Shown in pieces: positions 2,131-55,553 of a stretch of DNA of 64,000 nt (the first letter of the stretch is position 1; each line of letters opens with the position of its first letter). The notes under the pieces were generated by a model that ran no database searches, was not told the origin of the DNA, and saw nothing but the letters and a program-made list of their open reading frames with translations. This DNA is from Prostheceraeus crozeri. Lineage: Eukaryota; Platyhelminthes; Polycladida; Euryleptidae. A program made the position numbers and the translations under genes. Location: the NCBI GenBank assembly GCA_907163375.1, contig CAJQUW010008605.1, positions 248,001-312,000 of the forward strand, in the 5' to 3' direction.

Positions 2131-2585
2131 TTAAAATGCATAAATGATATCGCTATTTAGTATGTTGAATAAAACATCAAGCAAAGTGCAATGTCAAACC
2201 CATTAACATCAAACTTCTCATCAAGACTGAAAGCCCTTAATTTCGAGTGCAGGTAATAAACAAATAACTCCTGAAAATGATCAAACGCTCCTCATTTTCA
2301 AGTTATCCTCATTCCTCCTTCAGAAATTCATTTGGTATTTCTGACACTGCTACATGCACGTACTTTACCATTGGTTTTCAAGTTTCAATGTTGTTTCTTA
2401 GCCAATACTTTTAATGCACAAGAAAACAGGTCTGAAATTAAAATACAAGATGCTCCTTACAAAATTTACTTAAGAAAGACGCCACTTGAACCAAAAAAAT
2501 GAATCGTAGAAACAAATCGCGAAATATATTGCATCACTATTGACTTATTATTTGTTATTTCGATCAGAAGAAAGAGCTTGCACTT
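2131..2585. other. AT-rich spacer, nothing recognised
   Basis: No RNA gene, repeat boundary or family-like ORF is visible. The distal part may be diverged gypsy reverse transcriptase sequence, because the recognisable RNase H reading begins immediately after it, but I cannot support that from the frames. Confidence 0.4.
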
Positions 2586-2820
2586 GAGAATGACGCCCTT
2601 GAATATGACTTGGGTAGCATTATCAGCCAAGATGATGACTCCAGTAGCTTTTGCCAGCCGCCTTCTCACTTACTCAGAGAAAAATGACGCACAAATCGAG
2701 AATGAAATGATACCGTTAGTTTTCGATTTGTCTCAGGTCCATCACTATGCGTTTGGTAGAAATGTCAAGATCATTGCAGACCATCAACCATTGGTCTCGA
2801 TTATACAAAAGCTTCTGACA
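2586..2820 (+). pseudogene. Ty3/gypsy pol fragment, RNase H region
   Basis: The reading starts with a segment like the usual gypsy vDAsEyGLG motif (DALEYDLG), shifts frame once near 2637, then gives PVAFASRLL, SEKNDAQIENEM, HHYAFGR and ADHQPLVSI. These are classic signatures of the RT/RNase H junction in Ty3/gypsy polyproteins. It is a fragment: upstream RT motifs are missing and the downstream reading is cut by an inverted-repeat element. It belongs with the integrase fragment near 4.2-4.6 kb and the C-terminal fragment at 8.1-8.4 kb, which follow in the correct order on the same strand. It is not expected to be functional. Confidence 0.75.
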
Positions 2821-2821
2821 T

Positions 2822-4179
2822 GCCACGCGTGATTCACGCGTTATTACGGAACACCCCAAACATCCGTGTTTAAACCTATCTTACCCGGGCTATTTTGAGC
2901 GTCGAAATCCCGGGGGGGGGGCTAAAACAGCCACCCCTTAAGAAATCAATGTTCCAATGATCAAATCATTCTGAAAGTTACCTATCTACATAATTAGGAC
3001 ATGAGAAATTCAATGGTGGCATTCACTTTTGTTAAATTGATAGTCTTCGTTCTAAAAATAGCAATTCAAAATTTGAATTCAAATAATAGGAATCAATATC
3101 AACAAATCAATGTTCCAATGATCAAATCATTCTGAAAGTTACCTATAAACACAACCGATTTAGACGTGAAAAATTCAATGTTGGATTTTATTTTGGTTGA
3201 GTTGTTAGTTTTCATTCTAAGAATAGCAATTCAAAATTTGGATTTTGCTGATTTTATGAAAGGTTCAATATCAATATAAATCATTTTTTCACCTACATTG
3301 AAGAATTATCTAGCTCAAAATTTAAATCATCTTCTTGATAATTAATAATACCTCTCTAATTCTAATAATATTATAATTAATTCTAATAAAACCAGAAATC
3401 ATTTCAAGAACAGGGTAATTATTTTTCTAGCGAACTGTAGGTAAGCTGAACTTTCCAGATAGTTGCGTTATGTACTAAACGTCAGAATTAAGTCATCGCG
3501 AACACTGATAGAGAATATTCTGATAGAGATGCAGAAGTTAGAAAAACGAGAAAATTCATTTTTTGAAAAAGTACTTTTCACAATGACCCTCCAATTTGAC
3601 CTTCAAATGGGCCAATTGTAATCAAATTTGCACTGATGATCTGTCATACGACTAAACTTCAAAAAAATTCAGACTCCTAGCTAATATGGTTTATGAGATA
3701 TTTTAGAAAATGTAGAAGGGGGACTGTTTTAGCCCCCCCCCCCGGGTAAGATAGGGTTAAGGACATTCTATTCTTCTACGCGTGTACATACGCGCTGCAC
3801 TGTTAGAAATCACTTGATCTGATGCTGTTAAAACATGGGTAAAACATGGGAAATGTTTATGAATACACGCGGGTGAGCGTGTATAGTTTCGCGTCGTCCA
3901 CGGTTGTCTGCGCTGCCGCTTGAACCACTAAGATGAACCGCTAAGCATGTTCTGTCTTCCCTGAACATAAAATTGAGGTCCTATCACATTGTTTAGCCTC
4001 TGATACATGCAGACACATGAGACGCAAATTCTATATAACAGGACTGCCAACTAATGTATACTAACTTATATAACAGATGTTGCAGCAATATCCCGCATAG
4101 TCACGGATGTTTGGGGTCATGTGTAATTACGCATGGTTCACGCATGAATTACGTGGGATTGACTGTGGCATGTCACCTA
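2822..4179. mobile_element. Inverted-repeat element interrupting gypsy pol (CATGCCACG termini)
   Basis: The left side (ACATGCCACGCGTGATTCACGCG, given here only in part: CATGCCACGCGTGATT) and the right side ending GGCATGTCACCTAGTG are inverted copies. Both sides carry the block CCCCAAACA / TGTTTGGGG just inside. A second copy lies at 17208-17650 and shares the inner sequence (the stretch with CATGGGAAATGTTTATGAATAC and the GCATGTTCTGTCTTCC region), which shows this is a repeat family. The left terminus here appears shortened compared with the CACTAGGTGACATG start of the second copy. A further inverted-repeat element sits inside it (2871-3759). No protein is encoded. Confidence 0.6.
2871..3759. 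mobile_element. Nested inverted-repeat element with C/G homopolymer ends
   Basis: The 19-bp terminus TAAACCTATCTTACCCGGG at 2871 is repeated inverted as CCCGGGTAAGATAGGGTTA at 3741-3759, with one difference. Just inside are a run of ten G near 2911-2920 followed by CTAAAACAGCC, and at the other side GGACTGTTTTAG followed by eleven C near 3733-3743. The interior holds two direct tandem copies of a block of roughly 140 bp (about 2943-3080 and 3104-3245) sharing CAATGTTCCAATGATCAAAT. Comparison with the related copy at 17.2 kb, which lacks it, shows that it was inserted between the CCCCAAACAT block and the CTACGCG block. Confidence 0.6.
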
Positions 4180-4189
4180 GTGTGGTGCT

Positions 4190-4819
4190 ATCTTGCACGG
4201 AACACGGCTTGTTATTCCATAATCCATTAGATCTAAGATGAAAACGAACCTGATTCAGGCAGACCATTCGGGCATTAACTCGTGGTTGAGACGTGCTCGT
4301 CAATATGTCTGCAGGCCTGGCATGTCAACCGAAATTGGCCAAGAGGTCGAATCGTGTCATTCATGCAATAAGTATGCAGTCTCAAGAGAGTCACATTTTT
4401 CACGAAATGCTAAACAGACCTTAGGCAAAGGTAGGGGCGAGTGTGTTCAGTTACAAAGGTGAAGATTTTCTGGTCACGGCTGACTATTGTGGCATTTTTT
4501 TATTAGATCAACTGAATGACACGTCGGCACATAATAACAAAACTGAAAGATCACTTTTCACGTCCATATCATAGTTGCTCTGATGGTGCGCAGAAGCGGC
4601 GTTGAAAGTGTCCAAACATTTACTGATGAAGTGTGATAACTACAAGGAAGACTTCAGGTTAGACTGCTAAACTTAAGAAATACCCTACACTGTAAACTGT
4701 AGAGTACAAAAGCTGGCTGATTTTGACTACGAAACCGATGTACAAAACCAGACTAACAAAATGTACGAAAACGCTATTGTTTGTGCTCATACACTACGAA
4801 AGCGATTGCCTTACCTATT
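4190..4819 (+). pseudogene. Ty3/gypsy integrase fragment (zinc-binding and start of core)
   Basis: The reading includes HSGINSWLRRAR, VCRPGMSTEI and a CHSCNKYA segment, which together form the H2C2 zinc-binding module of gypsy integrase. It continues after a frame change into YKGEDFLVTADYCG, the beginning of the integrase catalytic core. Beyond about 4560 the frame is lost. A last recognisable stretch, MYENAIVCAHTLRKRLPYL at about 4761-4818, looks like the integrase C-terminal part just before the 288-bp array begins. The rest of this protein resumes after the array (8140-8424). Broken by several frameshifts and by the array. Confidence 0.7.
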
Positions 4820-5033
4820 AGCTATTTTCCGTCTGTTAAAATTATCATTGCAGCTTTCTTTGAATACTTGTGTGGACTAAGTCCCCGTTTCAAAGTATAA
4901 TGCTGGCTTTGAATTACTGATAACTTGCTTCAGTAGTTTGGCTTGACGGTTAATGCTATGTTGTCTTGGAGGATGAAGCTATCGGATTCTCTTACGCGGG
5001 TTCTTCAATTGAGGACTTATGTCGTTCTGTCGC

Positions 5034-5106
5034 TCGTCGATAGCTCAGTTGGTAGAGCGTTGGCCTAGAATGCCAGAGGTCGGTGGTTCAAATCCACCAA
5101 GACGCG
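5034..5106 (+). tRNA. tRNA-like gene, anticodon AGA, array copy 1
   Basis: Cloverleaf read from the sequence: D stem GCTC/GAGC with loop AGTTGGTA; anticodon stem TTGGC/GCCAG with loop CTAGAAT, giving anticodon AGA (U33 and A37 in place); five-base variable loop AGGTC; T stem GGTGG/CCACC with loop TTCAAAT. Internal Pol III promoters are present: A box TAGCTCAGTTGG and B box GGTTCAAATCC. A TTTT terminator follows at 5113-5116, seven bases after the discriminator position. The acceptor stem is poor: only positions 2-5 (CGTC/GACG) pair, while 1:72, 6:67 and 7:66 do not. AGA would decode serine codons, but serine tRNAs have a long variable arm, which is absent. The 5' half (TCGATAGCTCAGTTGGTAGAGCG) resembles eukaryotic tRNA-Tyr, shown here only for comparison. 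It may be a tRNA-derived RNA rather than a translating tRNA. Confidence 0.65.
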
Positions 5107-5321
5107 CAGCTATTTTCCGTCTGTTAAAATTATCATTGCAGCTTTCTTTGAATACTTGTGTGGACTAAGTCCCCGTTTCAAAGTATAATGCTGGCTTTGA
5201 ATTACTGATAACTTGCTTCAGTAGTTTGGCTTGACGGTTAATGCTATGTTGTCTTGGAGGATGAAGCTATCGGATTCTCTTACGCGGGTTCTTCAATTGA
5301 GGACTTATGTCGTTCTGTCGC

Positions 5322-5394
5322 TCGTCGATAGCTCAGTTGGTAGAGCGTTGGCCTAGAATGCCAGAGGTCGGTGGTTCAAATCCACCAAGACGCG
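5322..5394 (+). tRNA. tRNA-like gene, anticodon AGA, array copy 2
   Basis: Identical to copy 1 as far as I can read, with the same A and B boxes, imperfect acceptor stem and TTTT terminator 7 bases downstream. Confidence 0.65.
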
Positions 5395-5609
5395 CAGCTA
5401 TTTTCCGTCTGTTAAAATTATCATTGCAGCTTTCTTTGAATACTTGTGTGGACTAAGTCCCCGTTTCAAAGTATAATGCTGGCTTTGAATTACTGATAAC
5501 TTGCTTCAGTAGTTTGGCTTGACGGTTAATGCTATGTTGTCTTGGAGGATGAAGCTATCGGATTCTCTTACGCGGGTTCTTCAATTGAGGACTTATGTCG
5601 TTCTGTCGC

Positions 5610-5682
5610 TCGTCGATAGCTCAGTTGGTAGAGCGTTGGCCTAGAATGCCAGAGGTCGGTGGTTCAAATCCACCAAGACGCG
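5610..5682 (+). tRNA. tRNA-like gene, anticodon AGA, array copy 3
   Basis: Same sequence as copy 1. The flanking spacer is also the same, so the Pol III terminator TTTTCC is retained. Confidence 0.65.
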
Positions 5683-5897
5683 CAGCTATTTTCCGTCTGT
5701 TAAAATTATCATTGCAGCTTTCTTTGAATACTTGTGTGGACTAAGTCCCCGTTTCAAAGTATAATGCTGGCTTTGAATTACTGATAACTTGCTTCAGTAG
5801 TTTGGCTTGACGGTTAATGCTATGTTGTCTTGGAGGATGAAGCTATCGGATTCTCTTACGCGGGTTCTTCAATTGAGGACTTATGTCGTTCTGTCGC

Positions 5898-5970
5898 TCG
5901 TCGATAGCTCAGTTGGTAGAGCGTGGGCCTAGAATGCCAGAGGTCGGTGGTTCAAATCCACCAAGACGCG
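5898..5970 (+). tRNA. tRNA-like gene, anticodon AGA, array copy 4 (stem variant)
   Basis: The only tRNA copy with a visible change: GCGTTGGCC becomes GCGTGGGCC, which replaces the T28-A42 pair of the anticodon stem by a G:A mismatch. The other arms and both internal promoter boxes are unchanged. The substitution should weaken the anticodon stem. Confidence 0.6.
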
Positions 5971-6185
5971 CAGCTATTTTCCGTCTGTTAAAATTATCAT
6001 TGCTGCTTTCTTTGAATACTTGTGTGGACTAAGTCCCCGTTTCAAAGTATAATGCTGGCTTTGAATTACTGATAACTTGCTTCAGTAGTTTGGCTTGACG
6101 GTTAATGCTATGTTGTCTTGGAGGATGAAGCTATCGGATTCTCTTACGCGGGTTCTTCAATTGAGGACTTATGTCGTTCTGTCGC

Positions 6186-6258
6186 TCGTCGATAGCTCAG
6201 TTGGTAGAGCGTTGGCCTAGAATGCCAGAGGTCGGTGGTTCAAATCCACCAAGACGCG
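6186..6258 (+). tRNA. tRNA-like gene, anticodon AGA, array copy 5
   Basis: The tRNA part equals copy 1. The spacer upstream carries one substitution (GCTGC instead of GCAGC near 6003). Confidence 0.65.
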
Positions 6259-6473
6259 CAGCTATTTTCCGTCTGTTAAAATTATCATTGCAGCTTTCTT
6301 TGAATACTTGTGTGGACTAAGTCCCCGTTTCAAAGTATAATGCTGGCTTTGAATTACTGATAACTTGCTTCAGTAGTTTGGCTTGACGGTTAATGCTATA
6401 TTGTCTTGGAGGATGAAGCTATCGGATTCTCTTACGCGGGTTCTTCAATTGAGGACTTATGTCGTTCTGTCGC

Positions 6474-6546
6474 TCGTCGATAGCTCAGTTGGTAGAGCGT
6501 TGGCCTAGAATGCCAGAGGTCGGTGGTTCAAATCCACCAAGACGCG
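6474..6546 (+). tRNA. tRNA-like gene, anticodon AGA, array copy 6
   Basis: The tRNA part equals copy 1. The spacer upstream reads GCTATATTG instead of GCTATGTTG near 6400. Confidence 0.65.
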
Positions 6547-6761
6547 CAGCTATTTTCCGTCTGTTAAAATTATCATTGCAGCTTTCTTTGAATACTTGTG
6601 TGGACTAAGTCCCCGTTTCAAAGTATAATGCTGGCTTTGAATTACTGATAACTTGCTTCAGTAGTTTGGCTTGACGGTTAATGCTATGTTGTCTTGGAGG
6701 ATGAAGCTATCGGATTCTCTTACGCGGGTTCTTCAATTGAGGACTTATGTCGTTCTGTCGC

Positions 6762-6834
6762 TCGTCGATAGCTCAGTTGGTAGAGCGTTGGCCTAGAATG
6801 CCAGAGGTCGGTGGTTCAAATCCACCAAGACGCG
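6762..6834 (+). tRNA. tRNA-like gene, anticodon AGA, array copy 7
   Basis: Same sequence as copy 1, with intact A box, B box and downstream TTTT. Confidence 0.65.
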
Positions 6835-7049
6835 CAGCTATTTTCCGTCTGTTAAAATTATCATTGCAGCTTTCTTTGAATACTTGTGTGGACTAAGTCC
6901 CCGTTTCAAAGTATAATGCTGGCTTTGAATTACTGATAACTTGCTTCAGTAGTTTGGCTTGACGGTTAATGCTATGTTGTCTTGGAGGATGAAGCTATCG
7001 GATTCTCTTACGCGGGTTCTTCAATTGAGGACTTATGTCGTTCTGTCGC

Positions 7050-7122
7050 TCGTCGATAGCTCAGTTGGTAGAGCGTTGGCCTAGAATGCCAGAGGTCGGT
7101 GGTTCAAATCCACCAAGACGCG
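7050..7122 (+). tRNA. tRNA-like gene, anticodon AGA, array copy 8
   Basis: Same sequence as copy 1, in register with the 288-bp period. Confidence 0.65.
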
Positions 7123-7337
7123 CAGCTATTTTCCGTCTGTTAAAATTATCATTGCAGCTTTCTTTGAATACTTGTGTGGACTAAGTCCCCGTTTCAAAGT
7201 ATAATGCTGGCTTTGAATTACTGATAACTTGCTTCAGTAGTTTGGCTTGACGGTTAATGCTATGTTGTCTTGGAGGATGAAGCTATCGGATTCTCTTACG
7301 CGGGTTCTTCAATTGAGGACTTATGTCGTTCTGTCGC

Positions 7338-7410
7338 TCGTCGATAGCTCAGTTGGTAGAGCGTTGGCCTAGAATGCCAGAGGTCGGTGGTTCAAATCCA
7401 CCAAGACGCG
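7338..7410 (+). tRNA. tRNA-like gene, anticodon AGA, array copy 9
   Basis: Same sequence as copy 1, in register with the 288-bp period. Confidence 0.65.
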
Positions 7411-7625
7411 CAGCTATTTTCCGTCTGTTAAAATTATCATTGCAGCTTTCTTTGAATACTTGTGTGGACTAAGTCCCCGTTTCAAAGTATAATGCTGGCT
7501 TTGAATTACTGATAACTTGCTTCAGTAGTTTGGCTTGACGGTTAATGCTATGTTGTCTTGGAGGATGAAGCTATCGGATTCTCTTACGCGGGTTCTTCAA
7601 TTGAGGACTTATGTCGTTCTGTCGC

Positions 7626-7698
7626 TCGTCGATAGCTCAGTTGGTAGAGCGTTGGCCTAGAATGCCAGAGGTCGGTGGTTCAAATCCACCAAGACGCG
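7626..7698 (+). tRNA. tRNA-like gene, anticodon AGA, array copy 10
   Basis: Same sequence as copy 1, in register with the 288-bp period. Confidence 0.65.
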
Positions 7699-7913
7699 CA
7701 GCTATTTTCCGTCTGTTAAAATTATCATTGCAGCTTTCTTTGAATACTTGTGTGGACTAAGTCCCCGTTTCAAAGTATAATGCTGGCTTTGAATTACTGA
7801 TAACTTGCTTCAGTAGTTTGGCTTGACGGTTAATGCTATGTTGTCTTGGAGGATGAAGCTATCGGATTCTCTTACGCGGGTTCTTCAATTGAGGACTTAT
7901 GTCGTTCTGTCGC

Positions 7914-7986
7914 TCGTCGATAGCTCAGTTGGTAGAGCGTTGGCCTAGAATGCCAGAGGTCGGTGGTTCAAATCCACCAAGACGCG
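7914..7986 (+). tRNA. tRNA-like gene, anticodon AGA, array copy 11 (last)
   Basis: Same sequence as copy 1. The array breaks off 23 bp after this gene, at GTTAAAA|CTATTGAATG, so its TTTT terminator is retained but the spacer after it is lost. Confidence 0.65.
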
Positions 7987-8109
7987 CAGCTATTTTCCGT
8001 CTGTTAAAACTATTGAATGATAAAGATAATCCAAAAGGAAAGCCAATCACTTTCGTAGTGTATAGGCGCGAACAACAGCGCTTTCGTACATTATTCTGTT
8101 ATTTTCCTT

Positions 8110-8424
8110 TTGTACATCGGTTTCGTAAGTAGCTTTGGCATTGAACAGTTTACAGTGTACGAGGGTCTGGGCACGACACTATCTCAGAGACTGATTGGCA
8201 GACTCACCAAATCTCTGATACCAACAGCTCCTTCCACCTTGTTGCCAAGAAGACAGAACTTAGGTCATGATGTAGTAGAAATTGAGGCCAAGAGGCAAAA
8301 CACGGCTGAGAAGGTAAAAGTGACTCAAAGTAGAGACCTGGTGACCTTTCGTTCAGGTGATAGAGTTAGAGTGAGATACATTGGACGCAGAATTAATGGA
8401 AACCAGAAGAAGTGCAGTGGATGA
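8110..8424 (+). pseudogene. Ty3/gypsy integrase C-terminal fragment
   Basis: The reading has YEGLGTTLSQRLIGRLTKSLIPT, which corresponds to the well-conserved EGLG-(S/T)-P-AQRL-MGRRT-K segment of gypsy integrases, then a lysine-rich stretch and GDRVRVRYIGRR, the usual GDxVRV hydrophobic patch near the pol C-terminus. It continues the reading that was lost at the left edge of the array, in the same orientation, and so shows that one retroelement was split. The stop at 8424 is soon followed by the start of the A/B duplicated segment (8496). Confidence 0.75.
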
Positions 8425-8991: not shown

Positions 8992-10817
8992 CACTATCGG
9001 CCAAAAGTCTTACCCCAGTAGATCTAACTTTGACAAAGTCTCCACATTATGATGTAGAACATCTTTTGAGAAACATACAAGTAATTTTATGCATGTGATT
9101 GAATACAAAAGGAGATGCAGACATAGTACTTCACAACTTAAGGGCTATTGTCTAACATAGGATGCGTCGTGAGATTGATTAATTGCAAGATGCTAAGTTC
9201 TTAGTACTTAGTGTTACCTCCACGAGCACGAATTACTGCTTGACATCGGCGTGGCATAGACTCCACTAACGAATGGATAAATTCTTCCGGCATTTCCCTG
9301 TTCCATACAAGCAGAAGGTAGCTAATGAACTCTGACTTGCTTCTTGGAGCTTTTGCTGCGGCCTTCTCACCCAACCTCTTCCATGCGTGCTCAATAGGGT
9401 TCAGGTCTGGCGAGTTGCCGGGACAACCCATGGTTCGTACTCCTTTTTTCAGCCAGGAACGCCTTTACCTAGAAGTAATGAGTTATACTCGTTTTTCATG
9501 ATGATTTTACATCACAGATACAATTGAGTTTACTTTGCGAGCCAGATGACAAGGGGCGCTGTCATCTTGGAAGATGATATCATCTGTCGATAAACCTGAA
9601 GAGGTTGCCATATCCGTAATTGAGGGTATTGCTCGTGTCCTAAGAATCTTAAGATATTCATCTTGATTCACTGTGGACTCACAGAAGTGAAAACGCCCTT
9701 CACCGTTCCACGAAAAGCAGGACCACGCCATTACAGAAGTGGGATGCTTTGTGGTTCTTTCAATACAGTCCGGATGTAAAGCTTCTCCTTCTCGACGACG
9801 GACTAGTCGACGGCCATCATTAGCATAGAGGTTGAACCTGGACTCATCTGACCAAAGTACCCTTTTCCAGTCTTCCAGCGTCCATTCCATGTGCTCTCTA
9901 GCCCACTGAAGACGGGATTTTTTCATTTTTGCCGTTAATAATGGCTTTCGTAAGGGTCTTCTGGCACGGAAGCCGGCATCCAGTAACCTTCGTCAGACAG
10001 TCCGCACACTAAGATTAACTCCGCAATGGTGAATCTCTGCTTGGATAGAAGAAGCAGAAACTCTGCGGTCTCAGAGAACCATTCTCACGATCGCTGAGTT
10101 ATCCCTCATCGTTGTTGCACGTGGACGACCTGACTTACGGCGAGGCTGAATCGATTCACCCGACAAATGACGATTTATAATCCGATCTACTGTTCTTCGG
10201 TCACATTTGACACGAGCAGCTATTTGACGGTATGTGAAACATTCGTTGTGTAAAGCTACAATAACGGCCGGCGCTGAGGAGAAATCAATCTTCCAGGCAT
10301 TCTGAGGATATCTGTTAGCAGATATATAGTTCCGAGCTGCTATGATTCATCAAGTCACACAGGGAGACATCAAATCATCTCAGTTACTGATCGCGTAATT
10401 TCCGTTTGGAAGATTCCTCCTGTATCACGTGCTGCCTGGCGCATCCCTTAACCAAAGGAAACTTTTATGCAATCACGACCTTTATGTAATGCCATCTTTA
10501 ATGGAGATGGGATAACTCGCATAATGGCTGGGATTCAGTTGCTTATCATTGAAATATCCAAGGTCATTCTCAGGATATGACGAAAGTTTCCTCATAATCT
10601 TAATTCTCATACAATTTGACACAGATATTGTTTAATCACAATGCTTGACCTGCCTTTAGCAAAAGATGCAAATTAATTCATCGAAATGCTGTTTGAACAA
10701 CATTAGACTCCTTGTGAAAATAGTTTGGTGATTTAATTGATATTATTTCGGTAAAATTAAAAATACAGAAAAAAAACATTTAAACAAAAGGTGGGGCAAG
10801 ACCTTTGGCCGGTAGTG
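8992..10817 (-). mobile_element. Tc1/mariner element, inserted in copy A only
   Basis: The termini CACTATCGGCCAAAAGTCTTACCCCA (first 20 bases CACTATCGGCCAAAAGTCTT at 8992) and the inverse ending GGCCGGTAGTG at 10817 are flanked by TA on both sides (8990-8991 and 10818-10819). Copy B has the uninterrupted site GTATATATAGATCAC at 49914-49928, so both the boundaries and the TA duplication are proven by an empty site. It carries a broken DDE transposase on the minus strand. The insertion is later than the A/B duplication, unless B lost it by precise excision. Confidence 0.95.
9201..10290 (-). pseudogene. Tc1/mariner transposase, disabled
   Basis: Read 5' to 3' on the minus strand, an N-terminal helix-turn-helix region (FTYRQIAARVKCDRRTVDRI) begins near 10260, then a GRPR-type motif, then the catalytic core: WSDESRFNL (first Asp), IFQDDSAPCHLA (second Asp) and NSPDLNPIEHAWKRL (the DD34E-type Glu). 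The reading is interrupted by two TGA codons, one in MVL-stop-DRR near 10078 and one in VRTV-stop-RRLL near 9990, and by a frameshift between 9432 and 9506. The pieces 9507-9926 and 9201-9431 remain open. All catalytic residues survive, so inactivation is by nonsense and frameshift changes. Confidence 0.9.
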
Positions 10818-12399: not shown

Positions 12400-12925
12400 C
12401 ACACGGCTTTTCTCCAGTCTCTACCAGGCAGGAAAATCCCCATCCTTCTCCAAAACTATGAGTACACTTTCGATTTTAATATGCGCTTTAGAGGAGAAAT
12501 CACACACGATTAACGTGAGGGTGAGAGGTGATGTTTTCAAACAAGCTAGTATTTCATTTTTTTCTCTTATGTTACTTACCTTTGGTGCGTATGCGTGATC
12601 GAGGGTAGGAAGGCTTGTCTTCTCTACTAAATCACCGAGTGAAACGACAATCCTCTTTTCACTACCACGGTCCATTCCCTCAACTATAACAAGCTTGCAG
12701 ATTATATATTGCAAACTATAGACAATGCATGCAGCATTGTCTCTGCACTTTTGTTTGACGGAGAAAGTTGACAGCAAGACAGTGACAGCTTTGTACGAGG
12801 ATAGATAATTTGTTTGTATTATATTTCGGGTCTAGTTATAAGCCGGAGTCCGGAGTCATATCATTTGATAGGACTACGACTTCAGCAAAAATGATAGGAC
12901 TCCGGGACTCCGATTCCGCATCCCT
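12400..12925. mobile_element. hAT MITE, right part only, copy A
   Basis: Ends GATTCCGCATCCCTG at 12925, followed by GTATATAA, and equals the right part of the complete element in copy B (52044-52831). The left part has been removed by a deletion whose junction is at 12399/12400 (ATCGGCTTT|CACACGGC). A minus-strand ORF at 12421-12777 is open across most of it but has no similarity I recognise. It is conserved in B, which the duplication alone explains. Confidence 0.8.
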
Positions 12926-13436
12926 GGTATATAACGCAATGAATAGTTATGACGTCTGGTATTTCCCTTTTCAAAAAGGCAATGCGCCCTTGGTGTTTTC
13001 CAATCATTGCAAGGGCACCATCCGTAGCACATCGAATAATGTTTCTTAATTAATTTGTTTTGATGCATTGGAAACCGTACTGCCTTTTGTGTCGGTTGGA
13101 AGTTTCAGAACAAAGAGCATTCCTCTTGAATTTCTGATTTGAAGACAAATCGAAAAAAGCCAAGAAGCAAAGATTCATTATCTCGTAAGGTTGATTCGTC
13201 GATTTGCAATGAATGTTTTGTCTTCTCTAGAATTGTAGCCAGCTGATTTTCAACATCATTTATGCCGAAAATATAATATATCTTTCTTCCAAAATACTCG
13301 TATTTCCAAAAATTCTGAAATATATTAGAATATTTATCTTTACCCTTTGAAAAAAAATTTCCACTTAGTACATGTATAGTTGTTTCATCCATAAATACGG
13401 CATTTTTCCGCATCTCTCCTATATGAATTTTAGTTC
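12926..13436 (-). pseudogene. ZBED-like hAT transposase fragment, copy A
   Basis: On the minus strand the frame at 13105-13413 gives KTKHSLQIDEST, then LLLGFFRFVFKSEIQEE, matching the conserved (Q/L)LDEST and YVRFV-(x)-x-I-x-E segments of ZBED5/SCAND3/FAM200-type hAT transposase relatives. The first catalytic acidic residue of hAT transposases lies in this DEST region. Copy A has lost the C-terminal half through the deletion that also took part of the hAT MITE. Several frame changes follow 13105. Copy B (52840-53390 and 51500-52035) keeps more of the same gene. Confidence 0.6.
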
Positions 13437-13439
13437 GAG

Positions 13440-15219
13440 CATGTGGTTAGCTCACAAAATGAGTTAAAGTTTATTCAATTTCTAACTGTTGTTAGGCAAT
13501 TTTTATAATGCACTGTATGTCAAATGAAGAGGAAAAATATTTGGAATCAGAAAACATCACTTTTGTGATTCTTCATATTTACGGTGAAAAAGTTTGAGTG
13601 CACCCTCTTAGTAATCCTTTACTCTATGGTCATTACATTTTAGATCAATAATGTGTATGCTTATGAAAAGTTATTCAGAAGGACAGATTATCTCCCAATT
13701 ATTTCTTCTTCAATACGTTAACAATAAGGAAAATAAATTGAACGTCTTGTTCACTACTCGCATGAGACTTAAAAGTGAATCTTCATTTAGGTCCTTAATG
13801 TTTAATTTAAGTATTTTTTAAAATGTCAGTTTTTGCCATCGCCCGCCAACTAAGCATCGCTCCCTTTATCGCCCCGTAAAGTATTTTCGCCCATCAGAAT
13901 CTTTTCATCGCACACACCTTGAGAATCACTGGTCTAGATATTCCTTTATTCTAGCGCAGATTATTTAGGCAATTGTCATTCAAATCTTGACATCCAAATC
14001 ACTTTCTGCTATGTTTTTGACTTAGCTATTTTTCTGGCTGCAATTTTTCAACTGTACAAATCAAGAAAAGCAACTGTACATTTGAATTTAGAGCTGCACA
14101 AATTATGTCCAGTTGCAGGTTAAAAAAAGCCCTGAGATATTGGATTAAATTGGTGATGGTGCTTAGGACAAACGCCTTTAAAGAACTTCATATATTGTAG
14201 CTAATTTTCAGGTATGTTCAATGAATTTCCTCAGCCTAGAAAACATTGTCTCGTTTTCTACATTTATCAAAAAAGATCGAAAACGTGGAAATTAAAAGAC
14301 TTATTTTGTTCAGAAAGTGGGAGAAAAATCCGGATTTACCCAAGTACACTATCCAAAAATGCAACAAATTAGGAGATTAATACTGTGTTGACTTAAGCAA
14401 TAAAAATCATATTGTGCGTTGTAGATACTTAAATGTAATAATTACAGGTATGTGACAACTAAATGATAATGTAGAAATGTTTCCAACATCTGCAAAACAG
14501 CGGCAGAATTGCAGAGGGTTAACGCGAGTTACCAATAAGCAGGCGATAACTCCTGTTGACAGCAATCCTATAAAGATAGAATTGTTTTATCTTGAAGCGT
14601 TAAAGGACTGCATTACAGTGCTACATTCTGAAAATCAAGAGGATCGATAGCAATATTGAACTGTAGGAACGGCAAATCTCTACATTCTTGATAATGTTGT
14701 ACAAAACAACAATAAGATATTGTGAATCATTTTGAGCGTGACTTGTGTCCTGCATGTCAAAAACAATTCAATTTTCAAGAATAAGACATTGGAAGAAAAG
14801 ATTTGATATGTACACTTGCATGTTGACTTGGAGTAAGTCAAACCTTATGAAATAAAGAACAATGGTTAAATTTCATGTGTGTTGACAATACTTCCTTTTG
14901 AGAACAATGCATGAAGTGTTTGACTAATAACCTGGTGACCTACTTACCTCGTCTTTTACACATTCTTCTCCGATAGCATGACTTTAATAATGATATCCTA
15001 AATTATAAGAAAGTTCCTGCTTTCTGCTTGAAGTTGCTTATTACAAAATGTTCTAATGATTATGACAGAACGACTTAGGTTAGAAAACCTGAAATCATTT
15101 AAAAAGATAAACATGTCTCAGATAACTTTGATTATATCCTTTCATGGTCATCATCATAATTTCAATGACGATTGTTATTCTATTTCACACCTCAATAATG
15201 ATTTTTTTTGAAATTTTTT
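13440..15219. other. Copy A intergenic stretch
   Basis: No family-like ORF or RNA gene. The interval 14866-15104 is missing from copy B. Two short plus-strand ORFs that B shares (for example B 54400-54624) are broken here, so I do not call them genes. Confidence 0.4.
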
Positions 15220-15739
15220 TTATTGAAGCGCTTTATGCTTAAAGACAGCTGTTTTAATCACAGAATTAAATATCTTGTTTATCTGCTTCGGTTTGCTAGA
15301 AGTGTGATTAATACCAAATTGATGGCACATAGAGGAACCTATTAAGTGGGCAAAAAGGAATTCCTGATGCCTTTCAGAGATAGGAAAAAAGTCGTGCGTC
15401 GCTTGCGGATTAATATGAGTTACAGCAAAGTGCTTCGATTGCCAAAACTCCTTCAGATTCGAAGAATTCAGATCATTGCGCACAAGTTCTCTCCATAATG
15501 TTGGCCCTTCCAATCATTATTAAAAAAAGTAGCAGGCGTAGGAATATTACTTCAGTTGATGATTTCACCATCATCTCGGCATTGCTCACTGTATAGTGCA
15601 TACATTGAATCGATGCCAGGCATCGATGTATGTTTTGGTGTGTGCGAAGTGATATCACAGCACGCACGCATCTCTCACTGGCTCTGGTGTCCTCTGCTGA
15701 CAGCTTATTGTTTGCCATTTCCAATAGCAAGTGATACAC
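15220..15739 (-). other. Overlapping minus-strand ORFs of unknown nature, copy A
   Basis: Two overlapping frames, 15473-15739 (88 residues, start MYHLLLEMANNK) and 15220-15513 (97 residues, with HFAVTHINPQATHDFFPISERH), are open in both duplicate copies. They lie upstream of the ZBED-like remains on the same strand and next to the right inverted repeat, so they might be a 5' part of the same element. No domain is recognisable, and conservation between duplicates is not evidence of function. Confidence 0.25.
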
Positions 15740-15865
15740 GAATTATCCATTTGAGAAGGAGCAAGTTGTCTAATTCTGTGATATGCCATTTCGATATTAA
15801 GGTTACATACAATTTTTCCTTTCTAGGAAACCGAAGCGCGCGCAGATCAATCTAATTCTGTGGTT
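15732..15865 (-). repeat. Right inverted repeat inside copy A
   Basis: Inverse partner of 8773-8905. Together they bracket about 7.1 kb in copy A and about 5.8 kb in copy B, a difference explained mostly by the Tc1 insertion in A. Confidence 0.6.
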
Positions 15866-17207: not shown

Positions 17208-17650
17208 CACTAGGTGACATGTCACGCGTAATTACGGAACACCCCAAACATTCTACGCGCGTACATACGCGATACACTGTCAGAAATCACTTGATCTGAT
17301 GTTGTTAAAACATGGGAAATGTTTATGAATACTCGCGGGTGAGCGTGTATAGTTTCGCGTCGTCCACGGTTGTCTGCGCTGCCGCTTGAACCACTAAGAT
17401 GAACCGCTAAGCATGTTCTGTCTTCCCTGAACATGAAATTGAGATCCTATCACATTGTTTATCCTCTGATACATGCAGACACATAAGACGCAAAGTCTAT
17501 ATAACAGGACCGCCAACTAATGTATACCAACTTATATAACAGATATTGCAGCAATGTCCCGCATAGCCACGGATGTTTGGGGTCATGTGTAATTACGCGT
17601 GGTTTACGCGTGAATTACGTGTGATTGAGCGTGGCATGTCACCTAGTGAA
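17208..17650. mobile_element. Short inverted-repeat element, CACTAGGTGACATG termini
   Basis: CACTAGGTGACATG at 17208 and its exact inverse CATGTCACCTAGTG at 17637-17650 bound 443 bp. Further in, CACGCGTAATTACGGAAC faces GTAATTACGCGTGG. It shares its interior with the disrupted element at 2.8-4.2 kb. The termini start with CACTA, but the flanking bases (GTA on the left, AAG on the right) do not show the 3-bp duplication expected for the CACTA superfamily, so the family is left open. No protein is encoded. Confidence 0.7.
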
Positions 17651-17744
17651 GCTTTCATAGAAAATGTTTGATTTGATACAGCATGATCACTAAAATCAGG
17701 CTCAGGTAAGGCCCATAATCATCTGATGTAGCTTACCAGAACTA

Positions 17745-18400
17745 AGAGCAGAGAGAGACGTTTATTGATTCTTGAATGGTAATCAAAATATATCAAAGTG
17801 AAGATACAAATTGAGATTTGAAAATCATAAAATAAGTAAGTGACTCAATCATGAAGTGTAGATGACGCGATTATACACACTGATGGTAAAAAATAATTGC
17901 GACGCAAGGAGTTCTGCAAAAAGGCACTGAGATGCACTTGGTAGAAACACTGGATTCAGAAAATGCAACAGAGTTTTGGCATTGGAATTATTTCGCAGAA
18001 TGTTCTGCGACAAGCTAGACCTTCTCGAAGAAAGATCTTCAGACATAGTAATGCCCTTGATTTTTAGGCATCGTCTTTGAATTTTGTCTACGGAGTTTGA
18101 CTCTTCTTGAGATAGTCCGATGAAGGCAGGACAGGAATACTCCGTGGTAGATCTTATGATTCCATTGAATATCATCAAGAATTCCTCGTCGCTGGTAAAA
18201 GATTTAATTCTCCGCAGAATATAGATGCGCTGAGCACATTTTCGTTCAATCAGCTGGATATGACTTTTCCACTTCAAATCACTGTCCATCATAACTCCTA
18301 AAAACCTCACACTGTTTTTCAAAGATCACCAACGGAATCTTCGATTCGACATGCAATTGATCATAAAATGTACCTCGATAATAGACGAAGCCTCTATCGT
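17745..18400 (-). pseudogene. LINE reverse transcriptase, C-terminal fragment with 3' end
   Basis: The ORF at 17849-18322 (157 residues) contains SVRFLGVMMDSDLKWKSHI, a cysteine-arginine stretch (CAQRIYILRRIK), IFNGIIRSTTEYSCPAFIGLS and KIQRRCLKI. These correspond to the FLG(V/I)-x-(L/M)D-x-x-L-x-W motif and the following thumb region of Jockey/CR1/L2-like LINE reverse transcriptases. The catalytic palm is absent, so it is a typical 5'-truncated insertion. On the minus strand the sequence ends with AATCAATAAACG followed by TCTCTCTC around 17755-17770, consistent with a LINE 3' terminus carrying a polyadenylation signal and a short tandem tail. Confidence 0.75.
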
Positions 18401-25782: not shown

Positions 25783-27416
25783 CAGTCCGTTTCATAAAAA
25801 GTGGATCATCCTAAAATTTGACTAAATAAAACATAAGTATGATACAGAAAGCATTTTTCATGTTATTTCATGCCCCTAATATATTTAAATGTCCCTATGT
25901 AATCTGATAAGCTATGATACAGTAACGGTTCTTAAGAAGCTAATATTTTGTGGCCCTACCCTTATTGTCAATGACATTACCAATTCGTCTAGGCATTGAT
26001 TCGATGATATCGTTGATTTTTGACTGATCTAACTTTCTCCACTCTCTTTTTAAAAGTGACGTAAGTTGTGATACGCCATCTGTAGGTAGCAGTGAACGAC
26101 AAACGTTACGTTTTAGAATACTCCATACATTTTCTATGGGATTCAGATCAGGAGAACGAGCTGGCCAAGATAATGTCCTAATCCCTAATTGAGACTTGCA
26201 TAAGTTGACTCTACTACTCCTGTGACACGTAGCATTATCATCCATAAATAACCAAGTCGATGGATCACCAAGTTGATCTGTCATTTGGCCAATGTTCATT
26301 CGTAAAACATTCACATAGCGTTCAGAATTCATGGTTCCTTGCTGTATGTGAAGTTCAGAGCGGCCATTGGTCCAAATGCTACCCCAAATCAGTAGAGTCG
26401 CACCACCTTGTAGCCGGGGACGATGTAAATGTCTCGGAATTTCCTGATCAGATTTTATCCATAATCTCAATCGACCATCACTATCCTTCAGACGGACTGA
26501 TGCCTCATCAGACCAGACAACCCGATCCCATTGATTTCGCCAGTGACAATGACTCATTGACCATCTGAGACGTCTTTTTGTATGCTGATCTGATAATTCG
26601 ATCTGAGAGGGCCTCTTACAGCTCTTGAAATTCGACTCAATAAGTCTTCTACGAATAGTGGACTTAGAAATAGACGAGTCTAGTGCAGCCATCTCAGTTA
26701 ACGAGAGACTTGGATCAACTTTAACAAATCTCAAAATTAGGCGGTCTCTACGTTTGGATGTTTTGCGTGGACGACCAGAGCCCTCTTTACGACAGAGTCG
26801 AAAATCATCATTATGCCATCGATGCACATTTGTGTAAGGGACATTTAGTTATAGCAAGTTCTAGCAAGACTGACACTTTGCCTTTTGTGAATGCGATCTC
26901 GTTATTGTTCATTTGTGCTTTGTATTGTTTTCAACCGGTAAGAGATAGATTTCTAGCTGAAAGCAATCAGGACTGCTGCCAACACCACCGCAACGAAGTC
27001 AGGAAGCTATGGAACATGAAGTCCAGTTAATCACATGTAGCAGTTACATTATTGTTGATGAATAATGGTGCTATACTGGCTCTGATTGACCGATTTTCTT
27101 TATTTTTGTTTTGCTTGATAGCTTTTGGCTTGTAGAACAACATATTACATAACAAAGGAAACAAATGTAATTTTATAAGAGTGAGGTATGATTTTGTGTA
27201 ACATTGCTAAATGAAGATCAAATTATCTACTACTTTTTTTATCTATAACAGGAAAACAACTCAATATTCATGCTTGAAATTTCCGACAATGATATCAGTA
27301 AGCACAACTGACATATCTTCCAAATTTCAGAGAAATTCGTTCAATTTTGGCGGAGTTAGACAAAGTTGAAGTTAAGGCGATGTTTAAGGGTGATCCATTT
27401 TTTATGAAACAATCTG
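25783..27416 (-). mobile_element. Tc1/mariner element with near-complete transposase ORF
   Basis: The termini CAGTCCGTTTCATAAAAAGT at 25783 and the inverse ending TTTTATGAAACAATCTG at 27416 are flanked by TA (25781-25782 and 27417-27418). The internal blocks GGATCATCC and GGTGATCC mirror each other. The element carries one long transposase ORF on the minus strand with about 590 bp of leader and 157 bp of trailer. Its inverted-repeat wording resembles that of the foldback at 33.8-34.75 kb (GGACCACCTAAATTTC), so that smaller element may be a relative. Confidence 0.9.
25940..26827 (-). CDS. Tc1/mariner DD34E transposase, 295 residues
   Basis: Cut-and-paste transposase acting on the flanking inverted repeats. 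GSGRPRKTSKR near residues 17-27 is the usual GRPR-like minor-groove motif between the two helix-turn-helix subdomains; the second subdomain spans about 28-65. The catalytic triad is present: Asp107 in VVWSDEASV, Asp197 in FMDDNATCHRS and Glu232 in SPDLNPIENVW, with 34 residues between the last two (DD34E). The C-terminus ends in the family-typical MPRRI...GRATKY. Family members usually have 330-350 residues; here the first subdomain seems to be cut off by a frameshift. A second frame beginning at 26912 (MNNNEIAFTKGKVSVLLELA) ends near 26811 and looks like the missing start. Core intact but probably inactive through the N-terminal break. Confidence 0.9.
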   Translation of the reverse strand: MHRWHNDDFRLCRKEGSGRPRKTSKRRDRLILRFVKVDPSLSLTEMAALDSSISKSTIRRRLIESNFKSCKRPSQIELSDQHTKRRLRWSMSHCHWRNQWDRVVWSDEASVRLKDSDGRLRLWIKSDQEIPRHLHRPRLQGGATLLIWGSIWTNGRSELHIQQGTMNSERYVNVLRMNIGQMTDQLGDPSTWLFMDDNATCHRSSRVNLCKSQLGIRTLSWPARSPDLNPIENVWSILKRNVCRSLLPTDGVSQLTSLLKREWRKLDQSKINDIIESMPRRIGNVIDNKGRATKY

Positions 27417-41857: not shown

Positions 41858-44800
41858 GAAGAGAGAAGCGGTTTCATTTTAAAATTTCCTATTATATTTC
41901 TCGACGGTTTCTGATGTATTTTTGTATGACATTTTCGAAAATCATGGTTTAAAAATCATACGACCAGCCTTTTCGAGAAAATTGCAAAAATTCAAAATGG
42001 CAGACATAAAACCGAAACTGCATTCTGGGGCTAGAGTAAAAAATCTCAATTATTTCGTCAGCAACTTTCCTTGTAATTTTACACGCTCTTTTCAGTTATC
42101 ATTGTTGGAGTATCATGCGGCTTCGTATTTTTCGAGAAATGATAAAATTCAAAATGACGGGCATAAAGCCGAATCAGCAGTCTGGTGCTCGATTAATATC
42201 CATTATGCGTCAACAAGTCTTGGAGGTCCTAGGTTCTTAAAATTTCTTGGAAGTGTCATGTTCGCTTGTGCACAAACCAAAATATATGAACGGTTGTCCT
42301 GCGCGCCAATTACCCGTGCTAATGTTAATACATTTTGCCTCTTCTTATCGTTCTGTTTTGATAGCTTTCACTAGTAAATGGGTCAACATGTCTAAAGATT
42401 GCCTAAAAGAAAGATTTGCATATAGAGTATGGGTGATGATGTCCAATAACTATCAAATATGTGTAAATAGGCCTACAGGTACATGTATTCTGCTGATCAA
42501 ATGCACTGCCTACTTCTTTTTGCGTTATCGCAGTCTAGCATATTCAAGAGTAGTTGAAAAGACTCTTATTATATTAAATATGCATGGCAGATATGGCAGA
42601 TATTTATGCCAGTTAAACATGTAATAACCCCGGCATGTACCGGTAGTCTATACATGTCAATTATATTCTACGCATGTATTGTACATGTACATTTTACATG
42701 CATGTATGACATTTTTGTAATCATGAATAGAATTGTAAATAAAACACATAATTCCTGTAAAGACGTGTAGTTACAAGTTTCAAAAGATGATAGATAAGGA
42801 AGCTACATGCATTCCTTACAAAAGTCTAATCGACGACTATTGCAACGAGGCTTTTAATACTTGGCACAACAAACGAATGTCTTTCGATAAATTTGTGAAG
42901 GACAAAGAGCACATCAAACACTCTTTTCCAAACGACGTCCCTCGATATGTTCTGATTGAGAAAACGTATAGCCTAGGGGTTTATGGTAAGTTTTGTAGCT
43001 TCGCGCAGATTTACTGGTGTCTGGAGGCGTCTTTGAATCTGCCTACTCACCAACTGGTATCCTACATTCACAAGAAACTTGTATTGGTGTTGAGATTTTC
43101 CGGTCTCATCGTGATGCCTGCTGAAGTACACAATGCAGCTATTATTTCCAGCAATATCTACCATGTTGGAAAATATCGAGACCGGCCAACGTCGGCACTT
43201 CCGCTTGCAACCGACTCCACGAAGTCGTTTGTCTGCGTTGTCGACACCTGATTTCGTCCTGTTGTACTCGAGAACAGTACATGCTTTCGTATTTATTTCG
43301 GGTTCATGAACATGTCGATGAAAGTTATCAACGAGCAACACAGGTTTTCGTCCTTTGTCCCAGAATGAAACAATAGCACTACCCGGCTCATCGTAGAAAA
43401 CGTTCGTGTCATTTCTTTGATGACCCTCGATGGACTTGGTCGGTGCTCCTAGATTATTATTCCGGACGGTACCAATATAGGCCTACGTGGTATTATTTTC
43501 TCTAACTGCATCAACCAGTTCAATGGAAGTATACCAATTATCAGCAGTTAGCTGACGACCTGTGGCTAGGTAGGGTGCCATCAAATACATAGTGACGCCA
43601 ACTGTTGTGACATTTACTTTTGGCCTGTCATGACGGTTCCAACTCCAATGTAAAAAATTCCATTTAAGATATAGAATGTCTCAGCACAATTAACACAGCG
43701 GCAGAAATTTCATCACGAACTTTCCAGGCTTTGAGCTTTTATATTGCTGGAATCGGATTCTCCGGTGGAACTCAAGAACCTGCTCGTCTACTGTCAAGTA
43801 GAGACTGGTAATGAAGAAGCGATACAGATCTGCGTTGAATTCTTGAAATACATCTCGTACCGGTGTAAGTTTGTCACTGCGATCGAGACGTAATGGGTCA
43901 TCAAATCGTAGCACTGATTTTATTTGCAGGAATCTTTCGCTTGTCATGGTTGACTTGCAAATAGGAGAGCAATCACGTACACCCCAAAGTTCCGTCACAT
44001 CGTGATATCTCGCACGAAGCGCTCCAAGTAAAATAAGCAATCCTACAAAGGTTTCAAGTTCTGTCAAATCGATGGAAACAAACTTTTTTTGTTGTCAGGG
44101 TTCGCTCGATTGCAGTTTAGTGTGATTCAGCGATCTTGCAAATTGGAATAAATCAACGTGGTAGCAAGAGTCTTTGAATAGAACATCAATGCAGCCTCTA
44201 GTTCAGTCGATGGATCCACACCAGCAGCAGGTCCTTGCGTAAAATGTACAATGTTTCTAGCAGGTTCTCTGCTCGTAGCAGCACTAGTATTGGCGGTCTT
44301 CCACACACGTCCGGAGGGAGACACATATGAATCTGATTCTGTAGGTACATCGGCGCTTAGCTCATCGCCTGATTCACTTTCCGAATCGTTGTCCATGACC
44401 AAATCACTCTCATGTAGAGATTCGTCGTCCGAAGGCAACCCGTCGAACTGTTCCTCATGCATGATTTATTTGAACCTGTTCATCACCAGCGATGTTGTCC
44501 AATATCTGCATCGAGGAATCGTCCTTATAACTATCTTCGATGCGCCGTTGTACAAGTATATTCATAGCCTCAATCGCACGGTCTTTGCACTGATGCTTAG
44601 GACGGGAACCCATGCTACCACACGAAGAAATAATATGCGAGGTGGCTATTCACTGCTTTCCTGTTCTATACTTCGAATTAAAACGGTCTAGAACCCTCAT
44701 CAATGCTTCTGATTGGTCGCTTCACGGCCACGGCGTCATTTCACAAAAGCGTTGTGCGGTCGTTGTGTTCCAGCAGTGCGCATTTTTTCATCACAGAACC

Positions 44801-46910: not shown

Positions 46911-47267
46911 TCAAGTCAAGAATTCAGGGACCTGACAACCTTTGCATTCATTCATCAAGTAGTTTGGATTGGCCCTTTGAATGTAGATGCTCTCAATAGA
47001 TTTTCTTTTTACACTGTTGTACTCTTTAGCTAATAGTCTCCACTCAAAACCACTAATGTTGTTATGATGTTCTTTCATGTGAATTCTTACATGTGATTGT
47101 TCTTGTTTGCTATGTTCTAAAATTATTTGTTGTATAGTCCTTCCTGTCTCACCAATGTAGATTTTCTTGCAGATGTTGCACTCGATTTCATATACGACAC
47201 CTTTTAATAAACATAGACCTTCTTTCTTTGCAGTTTGGCAGCTAACACAATTACTGGCACACGGCAC
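46911..47267 (-). CDS. Penelope-like GIY-YIG endonuclease domain
   Basis: 118 residues. CASNCVSCQ and KGVVYEIECNICKKIYIGETGRTI show the paired cysteines, the GIY (GVVY) and YIG (YIGE) motifs and the conserved GxT-G-R. ILEHSKQEQSHVRIHMKEHHN follows, with the usual R replaced by I in the (K/R)-x-R-x-x-EH helix. It is the C-terminal endonuclease that nicks target DNA during Penelope-like retrotransposition. It follows the linker and RT fragments on the same strand in the proper order, with a frameshift between 47204 and 47267 only, so this locus once held a nearly complete element. Confidence 0.85.
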   Translation of the reverse strand: MPCASNCVSCQTAKKEGLCLLKGVVYEIECNICKKIYIGETGRTIQQIILEHSKQEQSHVRIHMKEHHNNISGFEWRLLAKEYNSVKRKSIESIYIQRANPNYLMNECKGCQVPEFLT

Positions 47268-47717
47268 GGACGTTTCTCTTTGTCTGCTCTCAGTTTCCGT
47301 TGTAAAGGTTCATTAGTTACAAAAACAAAATTCATATAATCCTCCAGTCTCCATGTTCGTTTCTTAGTGTCATCATTTTCCTTTTTCATATTCATTGACA
47401 TACGGGACTTTCATAAAAATTCGATTATCTCTCTGTCGTTTATCTTTTCTTTCCTTAACTTCCTTTTCAATGAAAAACTTCCTCAAAAAGTCTTTTGGAT
47501 AACCATTTCTTCTGAATCTATTCAAAAGAATATTCATTGAGATATCTAAATTAAGATCGTCTGATGATAATCCTATTGCTCGTAATTTTTCTGAATGTAA
47601 TAGACCAATTTTTCTGGAAGTAGGAACAGCTGAATCAAATGGTAGACACGTATCACTATGAAGTGTTTTCACATACAATGATATGAAAATAAATTTTCTG
47701 AATTCACCTCTATCCAT
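47204..47717 (-). pseudogene. Penelope-like RT C-terminal/linker region
   Basis: Frames 47373-47717 and 47204-47401 overlap. Visible: YVKTLHSDTCLPFDSAVPTSRKIGLLHSEKLRA, then NILLNRFRRNGYPKDFLRKF (the NGYP motif of the linker), then RIFMKVPYVNEYEK and an arginine-rich segment. These lie between RT and endonuclease in the family. Confidence 0.75.
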
Positions 47718-48025: not shown

Positions 48026-48049
48026 TAGTGTGTTGAAATCTTCTCATCT

Positions 48050-52831: not shown

Positions 52832-52839
52832 GTATATAA

Positions 52840-55427: not shown

Positions 55428-55553
55428 GAATTATCCATTTGAGAAGGAGCAAGTTGTCTAATTCTGTGATATGCCATTTCGATATTAAGGTTACATACAA
55501 TTTTTCCTTTCTAGGAAACCGAAGCGCGCGCAGATCAATCTAATTCTGTGGTT
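55420..55553 (-). repeat. Right inverted repeat inside copy B
   Basis: Inverse of 49706-49838 (CACAGAATTAGACAACTTGC block and AACCACAGAATTAGATT end). Confidence 0.6.

Follow-up and report, generated by a model that had tools for sequence, protein, structure and literature searches.

The tandem array and its insertion site

We analyzed a 64,000-nucleotide stretch of the Prostheceraeus crozeri genome (assembly GCA_907163375.1, contig CAJQUW010008605.1, positions 248,001 to 312,000, forward strand), hereafter the window, for a tandem array whose 288-bp unit carries a tRNA-like domain. The array occupies positions 4820-8009 and includes 11 units of exactly 288 bp followed by a 22-nt partial twelfth unit that ends at 8009. 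Tandem Repeats Finder reported a single array (4820-8013, period 288, 11.1 copies, 99% matches). Together with a unit-by-unit comparison, this confirmed the exact period, the 11 units and the roughly three differences described in an initial annotation made from the sequence alone. Eight of the 11 full units are identical to unit 1, unit 1 itself being counted, and the whole array contains three substitutions, namely T242G in unit 4, A33T in unit 5 and G141A in unit 6. The GC content of the unit is 44.1%. The copy number of 11 is that of the assembly, in which indel-rich array stretches occur elsewhere (locus L101, ~85-88%; locus L113, ~91-95%). The array and the sequences that enclose it, among them an element with terminal inverted repeats (TIRs), are as follows.

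2503-4459, plus strand: gypsy/Ty3 fragments left of the insert, RT_RNaseH (2503-2829) and Integrase_H2C2 (4223-4459), identified with Pfam
4686-4687, no strand: TA target duplication of the TIR element, left copy, from TA flanks in other copies
4688-8157, no strand: host TIR element CACTGTAAACTG...CAGTTTACAGTG, 275 bp without the array and one CTATT, from element comparison
4815-4819, no strand: target site duplication CTATT, left copy, from the empty site CCTTACCTATTGAATG of locus L010 and also from L011 and L012
4820-8009, plus strand: tandem array, 11 x 288 bp plus the 22-nt partial unit AGCTATTTTCCGTCTGTTAAAA, from Tandem Repeats Finder and unit-by-unit comparison
4842-4849, plus strand: TTATCATT, the continuation of the unit beyond the 3' end, resembled by target sites, from flank comparison
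7993-8009, plus strand: array 3' end TTTTCCGTCTGTTAAAA, the point where the copies read stop, from array loci and other copies
8010-8014, no strand: target site duplication CTATT, right copy, from empty-site comparison
8158-8159, no strand: TA target duplication of the TIR element, right copy, from TA flanks in other copies
8158-8421, plus strand: gypsy sequence right of the insert (YEGLGTT...), with 0 Pfam families, found collinear with the left part in each of three sister copies

The gypsy element noted around the array in the initial annotation was recovered by Pfam as RT_RNaseH and Integrase_H2C2. What directly borders the array is not gypsy but the TIR element, whose arms are 81% alike over 95 aligned positions and which in turn interrupts the gypsy/Ty3 copy. 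The peptide LRKRLPYL, previously taken as an integrase reading cut by the left border, lies in the left arm of this 275-bp element. Among 52 loci examined for other copies of the TIR element, 35 were distinct and had both ends, most of them ~272 bp long, and 24 of these 35 are flanked by TA on both sides. By its short length, terminal inverted repeats and TA duplication we class it as a Tc1/mariner-type miniature inverted-repeat transposable element (MITE).

Array-free sister copies of the gypsy sequence with the TIR element at the same place were found at C7161:120479 (L010), C7161:74954 (L012) and C10180:60914 (L011). They agree with the window at 92-98.5% across the longer segments of flank and at 90.5% in one 316-base segment. 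The empty site reads CCTTACCTATTGAATG in L010, as compared with CCTTACCTATT-[array]-CTATTGAATG in the window, and CTATT is kept in the empty sites of L011 and L012 with single-base differences nearby. With all three sister sites empty and CTATT duplicated, the array therefore arrived as an insertion; relative to the empty site, it is one insertion with a 5-bp target duplication.

The tRNA-like domain

Unit positions 215-287 scored 47.1 bits against the Rfam tRNA family RF00005 (gathering threshold 29) in all three units tested, the Rfam scan having covered positions 4600-5700 with expectation values (E) up to 10. Motifs were labeled by comparison with the A-box and B-box consensus of genes transcribed by RNA polymerase III (Pol III). 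The features of the first unit are listed here.

5034-5106, plus strand: tRNA-like domain of unit 1, unit positions 215-287, from Rfam RF00005, repeated every 288 bp to 7914-7986
5041-5052, plus strand: A-box-like motif TAGCTCAGTTGG of unit 1, from unit position 222, by motif comparison
5085-5095, plus strand: B-box-like motif GGTTCAAATCC of unit 1, from unit position 266, by motif comparison
5113-5116, plus strand: TTTT, the sole run of four Ts in the unit, directly after the tRNA-like domain and present once per unit

The presence of motifs resembling both boxes agrees with the Pol III unit that had been proposed, and the TTTT may act as a weak Pol III terminator. In contig C5287 (57446-59475), eight successive units carry C before CCGTCTG (T9C) and have lost this sole TTTT, making them a natural terminator mutant. 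The earlier term "tRNA-like genes" holds for the likeness, given the Rfam score, but not for the gene: ARAGORN found no tRNA gene in the array units under default settings, and thresholds lowered to 30% returned five low-grade structures in two units. Three non-standard pairs occur in the acceptor stem in the Rfam alignment. The same Rfam scan (4600-5700, E up to 10) listed no ribozyme. As for hammerhead motifs in the unit, exact CTGANGA was found on neither strand and GAAA on the minus strand only.

Genome-wide distribution of arrays and their common 3' end

The genome searched comprises 2.05 Gb in 14,165 contigs. A search with one unit gave at least 242 matches, with 40 of 157 candidates scored. 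The exact 25-nt unit junction occurs 1,328 times as compared with 0 for a reversed control, and the array is thus not a chance repeat; the 100 junctions listed fall in 14 contigs. The unit is therefore dispersed, as a genome-wide search suggested in the initial annotation has now shown. That annotation had held that copies found elsewhere only as authentic tRNA genes, without relation to gypsy, would speak against its view. Sixteen other array loci do have other flanks, as judged by eye, which speaks against that view in part; authentic tRNA genes, however, they do not contain. With three differences in 3.2 kb, the array of the window is young or homogenized; the family itself is old. Among older relatives are L076:141-263 (84.6%) and L046:2060-2184 (77%), and the copy in L050 also ends at GTTAAAA; a search with the latter gave 706 first-look candidates, 40 of which were scored.

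Array ends were compared at 16 loci with both ends read and at C9855, where only the 5' end was available and the array reaches the first base of the contig. In all 16 loci the 3' end lies at the same point, ...GTCTGTTAAAA or ...CGTCTGTTAAAA, within a margin of at most six bases where flank and unit agree by chance or homology; for instance, the C2270 array continues past it with TTATCA. In contrast to this fixed 3' end, the 17 loci have 17 different 5' ends, at unit positions 1, 25, 52, 56, 70, 71, 72, 80, 111, 137, 153, 235, 237, 241, 247, 256 and 271. No unit-like sequence was recognized past the repeated part at the loci read by BLAST against the unit, a comparison that a SINE (short interspersed element) part unlike the unit would escape. 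Array sizes range from less than two units to ~31 units, the latter in C3597 as the span of the listed matches.

Within 8 kb of C5440 (22910-30102; L107-L110) there are four array ends with nearly identical right flanks, probably a segmental tandem duplication that included the arrays. In C7241 (L113), a run of 19 As lies at an inner unit junction of an indel-rich array, perhaps as a second insertion into an existing array or an assembly error. The latter case suggested self-targeted, in-phase insertion into existing arrays, which was rejected as a general route because inner units otherwise read full length, apart from small indels and one 21-nt deletion in C11571.

Truncated copies and clustering of 5' ends

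In the genome, 87 sites carry the common 3' end with a base other than T directly after it, as compared with one occurrence of the control. Forty of these sites were read in fragments of 458-1,031 bases and 20 in 70-base fragments, and five others are loci already read; sites C7241:49104 and C14158 fall outside the sample of truncated copies. The 40 sites consist of 13 in or at the end of multi-unit arrays, two duplicates of one locus and 25 distinct other copies. All of these 25, which were found through the common 3' end, are less than one unit long with that same end, except perhaps for L118, which may be part of an array; L105 is just a 19-nt match.

When the 5' ends of the 25 copies and 17 arrays were pooled, 7 of 42 fell at unit positions 271-273 and 6 of 42 at 70-72. 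A cluster of seven in a 3-nt window was equaled in none of 5000 random draws. In 11 of the 20 short fragments the copy extends past the fragment edge. The other nine show a break, three of them at 271-272; two of the nine, L146 and L149, resemble inner deletions. The target sequence AATC beside the break can mimic ends at 271-273. By our own count, unit position 272 corresponds to A58 of the T-loop, and positions 70-76 form one side of a predicted hairpin. Both clusters would fit a reverse transcriptase halting at folded RNA, and a role of m1A58 modification in the T-loop stops is speculation. Three of the 25 non-array copies begin at 70-71, which is 144-145 nt ahead of the tRNA-like domain, and others begin at 95-201. 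Starts at 23-69 are found in none of the 25 copies versus three of the 17 arrays, a gap that could reflect a linear RNA beginning near position 70.

Target homology and the form of the template

Past GTTAAAA the unit continues with TTATCATT. The right flanks of the 16 arrays match this continuation at 4.375 of 8 positions on average, as compared with 2.45 further out, and none of 20,000 random draws gave a match as high. The analysis was extended to 47 junctions, namely the 16 arrays and 31 of the 40 sites, after removal of duplicates (L097, L127, L108-L110) and inner junctions (L101, L113, L118, L125). This set is biased in that the search excluded T after AAAA. With As stripped, the 46 usable flanks gave a match score of 89 versus 0.6 (standard deviation 11.3), again with none of 20,000 draws as high. 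Mismatched flanks such as TTTTCATT, TAATCATT and TTCACATT suggest real flank rather than unread unit. Since the flanks resemble the continuation of the unit, the RNA template probably crosses the unit boundary, either as a multimer or as a circle.

Extra As (1 to 18) are present at 24 of the 47 junctions, as from slippage or a tail, and TCA occurs within seven bases past the As at 23 of 47. L1-like priming at TT/AAAA was considered for these A runs and set aside in view of the TCA-rich flank past the As and of left flanks that, by eye, generally lack a duplication beginning in As.

Variants within and between arrays

Variants were compared among 15 arrays, several of which proved pure. Substitution 179A is present in 12 of 12 units of C9951, 94G in all three units of C12477, and both 80T and 138A in all three units of C136; these changes were absent from the other arrays compared. 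All 21 full units of C9986 are identical, and T9C marks the eight consecutive units of C5287 noted above. Genome-wide, 80T was found at 28 places: 17 of 18 slots of a 288-bp ladder in C6039, three in C136, two in C9727 that are 523 bp apart, and six scattered. Variant purity of this kind is compatible with a circular template of one unit, with a source array that was itself pure, and with the expansion of a small seed.

Proposed mechanism and alternative explanations

We consider it likely that the family is a small non-autonomous retroposon with a 288-nt repeat unit and a tRNA-like domain near the 3' end of the copied part, found as tandem rows. This view builds on the insertion in the window, the common 3' end, the variable 5' ends, the target homology and the variant-pure arrays. 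The combination of a fixed 3' end in 16 of 16 arrays with variable 5' truncation is a hallmark of target-primed retroposons. The RNA intermediate, its transcription by Pol III or otherwise, the form of the template and the copying enzyme are inferred. In the best reading of the data, the family would be a ribozyme-less analogue of metazoan retrozymes, or SINE-like, moved by target-primed reverse transcription and partly reshaped in place.

The RNA template, a multimer or 288-nt circle, would cross the unit boundary, and a borrowed reverse transcriptase would prime at a nicked target that pairs imperfectly with UUAUCAUU. Copying would begin at GUUAAAA, with the target strand extended into AAAA. 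The enzyme would then pass through one or many units before it stops, with the T-loop of the tRNA-like domain and the region around unit position 70 as preferred stopping points. Products would range from a 30-nt stub to many units in a row, all sharing one 3' end and differing in the 5' end. One such row landed in the Tc1-type MITE within the gypsy copy of the window, duplicating CTATT, and unequal exchange would later alter the numbers of units.

Several observations weigh against this target-primed reading. Target duplication was judged plausible at 4 of 16 array loci (the window, C5254, C11571 and C6205) and was checked against an empty site at the window locus alone. Clustering of the array 5' ends by themselves is not significant (p 0.12), and short target homologies can move apparent 5' ends; part of the 3' flank match may likewise be a few bases of genuine unit. 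At C9855, matches are spread over 16 kb from the first base of the contig, which, if continuous, is longer than a single simple round of target priming should produce. A partner LINE (long interspersed element) was sought by its exact 13-nt tail preceded by a base other than T, with 55 occurrences genome-wide versus 76 for the control and hence no excess of exact tails; eight of the 55 are C5287 units. By eye, the tail is also absent from ~610-650 bp downstream of both a LINE-like fragment at 17849-18325, itself recognized by eye and given just two weak unrelated matches by Pfam, and ORFs (open reading frames) resembling Penelope-like elements (PLEs) at 46911-48043. In the window outside the array, the 17-nt tail has a single match, at 31507, with three mismatches.

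Some arrays are also mixed. C5254 has units of types A,0,B,A,B, and C1385 carries 31A in units 1, 4 and 5 of five. In C6205, 242G is present in two units, a change also found once in the window, and in C136, 114T and 133G are present in two of three units and missing from the first. Given these mixed arrays and the variants shared by neighboring units, exchange in place therefore also occurs.

The strongest competing explanation, to which we give a substantial though somewhat smaller chance than to its being wrong, is seeding followed by expansion. A retroposed fragment of just over one unit, carrying a direct repeat of at least 22 nt, would insert, and the row would grow by unequal crossing over and conversion as in satellites. 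Variant-pure arrays are expected equally under this scheme, which is also favored by the variants that adjacent units share in C136 and C6205, by the 114A of C11571 in units 5, 9 and 15 of 20 (itself a departure from purity), and by the wide range of array sizes, from less than two units upwards. However, the seed itself requires a template that crosses the boundary, and no copy with both ends read falls between ~241 and 537 nt, the expected seed size, in a sample that is not random and excludes L118 and edge-cut arrays.

A more specific form of the target-primed reading is tentative and rather unlikely. A host pathway would circularize the 288-nt RNA via the tRNA-like domain, as in a retrozyme free of ribozymes, and rolling target-primed copying would insert the finished array in one event. 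If so, the T-loop stops around A58 would be the footprints that a tRNA-like RNA, perhaps a modified one, left on the copies. Two observations count against the circle: a linear RNA could have its 5' end where copies begin at 70-72, and some arrays are mixed.

Spread at the DNA level, with extrachromosomal circles or a Helitron-like process as the vehicle of the satellite, would account for tandem units, near identity and dispersal. It is nevertheless improbable, as circles inserting at random breaks would not produce one and the same 3' end at 16 of 16 arrays and in truncated copies, or a cluster of 5' ends in the tRNA T-loop. Capture of a Pol III unit by gypsy and amplification within its coding sequence, the origin first proposed, is very hard to maintain: the array does sit between two parts of one gypsy copy, but three sister copies of gypsy and MITE are array-free, the target is duplicated, exact junctions occur 1,328 times in the genome, and 16 other array loci have other flanks. 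A cluster of working tRNA genes is just as implausible despite the Rfam score, the box-like motifs and the TTTT after the domain, given the ARAGORN result at default settings, the three non-standard acceptor-stem pairs and copies truncated at many positions.

Other elements in the window

Two Tc1-like transposase genes are found on the minus strand at 9201-10346 and 25940-26848, of which Pfam covered 9510-9992 and 25943-26848 only; the latter is open over 302 codons. A piggyBac-type transposase fragment (DDE_Tnp_1_7, E 2.8e-21) lies at 43690-44094, also on the minus strand. Three ORFs at 12421-15855 are repeated at 52334-55543, ~40 kb apart, with order and orientation kept and few differences, and the pair is probably a duplicated element of several kb. 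By eye, ~3780-4200 (plus strand) and ~17240-17700 (minus strand) are apparently one repeat on opposite strands, possibly a long terminal repeat or a MITE. Fragments of a PLE were recognized by eye at 46911-48043 on the minus strand; their C-terminal ORF has a GIY-YIG match with E 5.5e-4, just below the Pfam cut-off, and the ORF at 47672-48043 has no Pfam match. PLEs are a proposed helper of metazoan retrozymes (PMC7229834).

Comparison with known systems

SINEs derived from tRNA have a tRNA-like domain with A and B boxes, 5' truncation, dispersed copies and short duplications. The 288-bp family resembles them in its tRNA-like domain, box-like motifs, 5' truncation and dispersal, and in a short duplication at the window locus and, plausibly, at a few other loci. 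In contrast to these SINEs, its tRNA-like part lies near the 3' end rather than the 5' end, with up to 145 nt ahead of the domain in truncated copies, its template appears to cross the unit boundary, and no exact tail in common with an abundant LINE was found. Schistosome Sm-alpha repeats are tandem and SINE-like, with Pol III boxes and a hammerhead, whereas no hammerhead was found in the 288-bp unit.

Metazoan non-LTR retrozymes have tandem units of 150-450 bp with GC below 50%, in dimers to large multimers, and their circular RNA is proposed to be reverse-transcribed into tandem cDNA by a LINE or PLE enzyme (PMC7229834). The 288-bp tandem unit with 44.1% GC is similar to those described there (PMC7229834). 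Unlike them, it has no hammerhead or ribozyme match and carries a tRNA-like domain instead, and the family shows a common 3' start point and target homology at many loci.

Squamate SINE-derived satellites mostly form arrays with a longer terminal unit that reaches the SINE terminus (PMC10702118). Tandem rows of a SINE-like unit and homogeneous long arrays are common to both systems, but the 288-bp arrays begin anywhere in the unit and end at one point, and nothing resembling the unit was recognized past it.

Metazoan retrozymes and the squamate satellites were the nearest systems that a literature search turned up. A published account of a ribozyme-free mobile tandem array of this kind was not found among its titles and abstract openings, in a search that left subscription papers mostly outside and did not cover SINE papers on the source organism. 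How satellite arrays originate and disperse is an open question, and here the junctions argue that rows of the 288-bp unit arise by retroposition from a template crossing the unit boundary, with no hammerhead found. With 1,328 exact junctions, truncated and tandem copies side by side, and variant-tagged arrays, the family offers natural test material for it. In our assessment it is a variant of the retrozyme/SINE class, and the window holds a nested insertion of a dispersed tandem retroposon.

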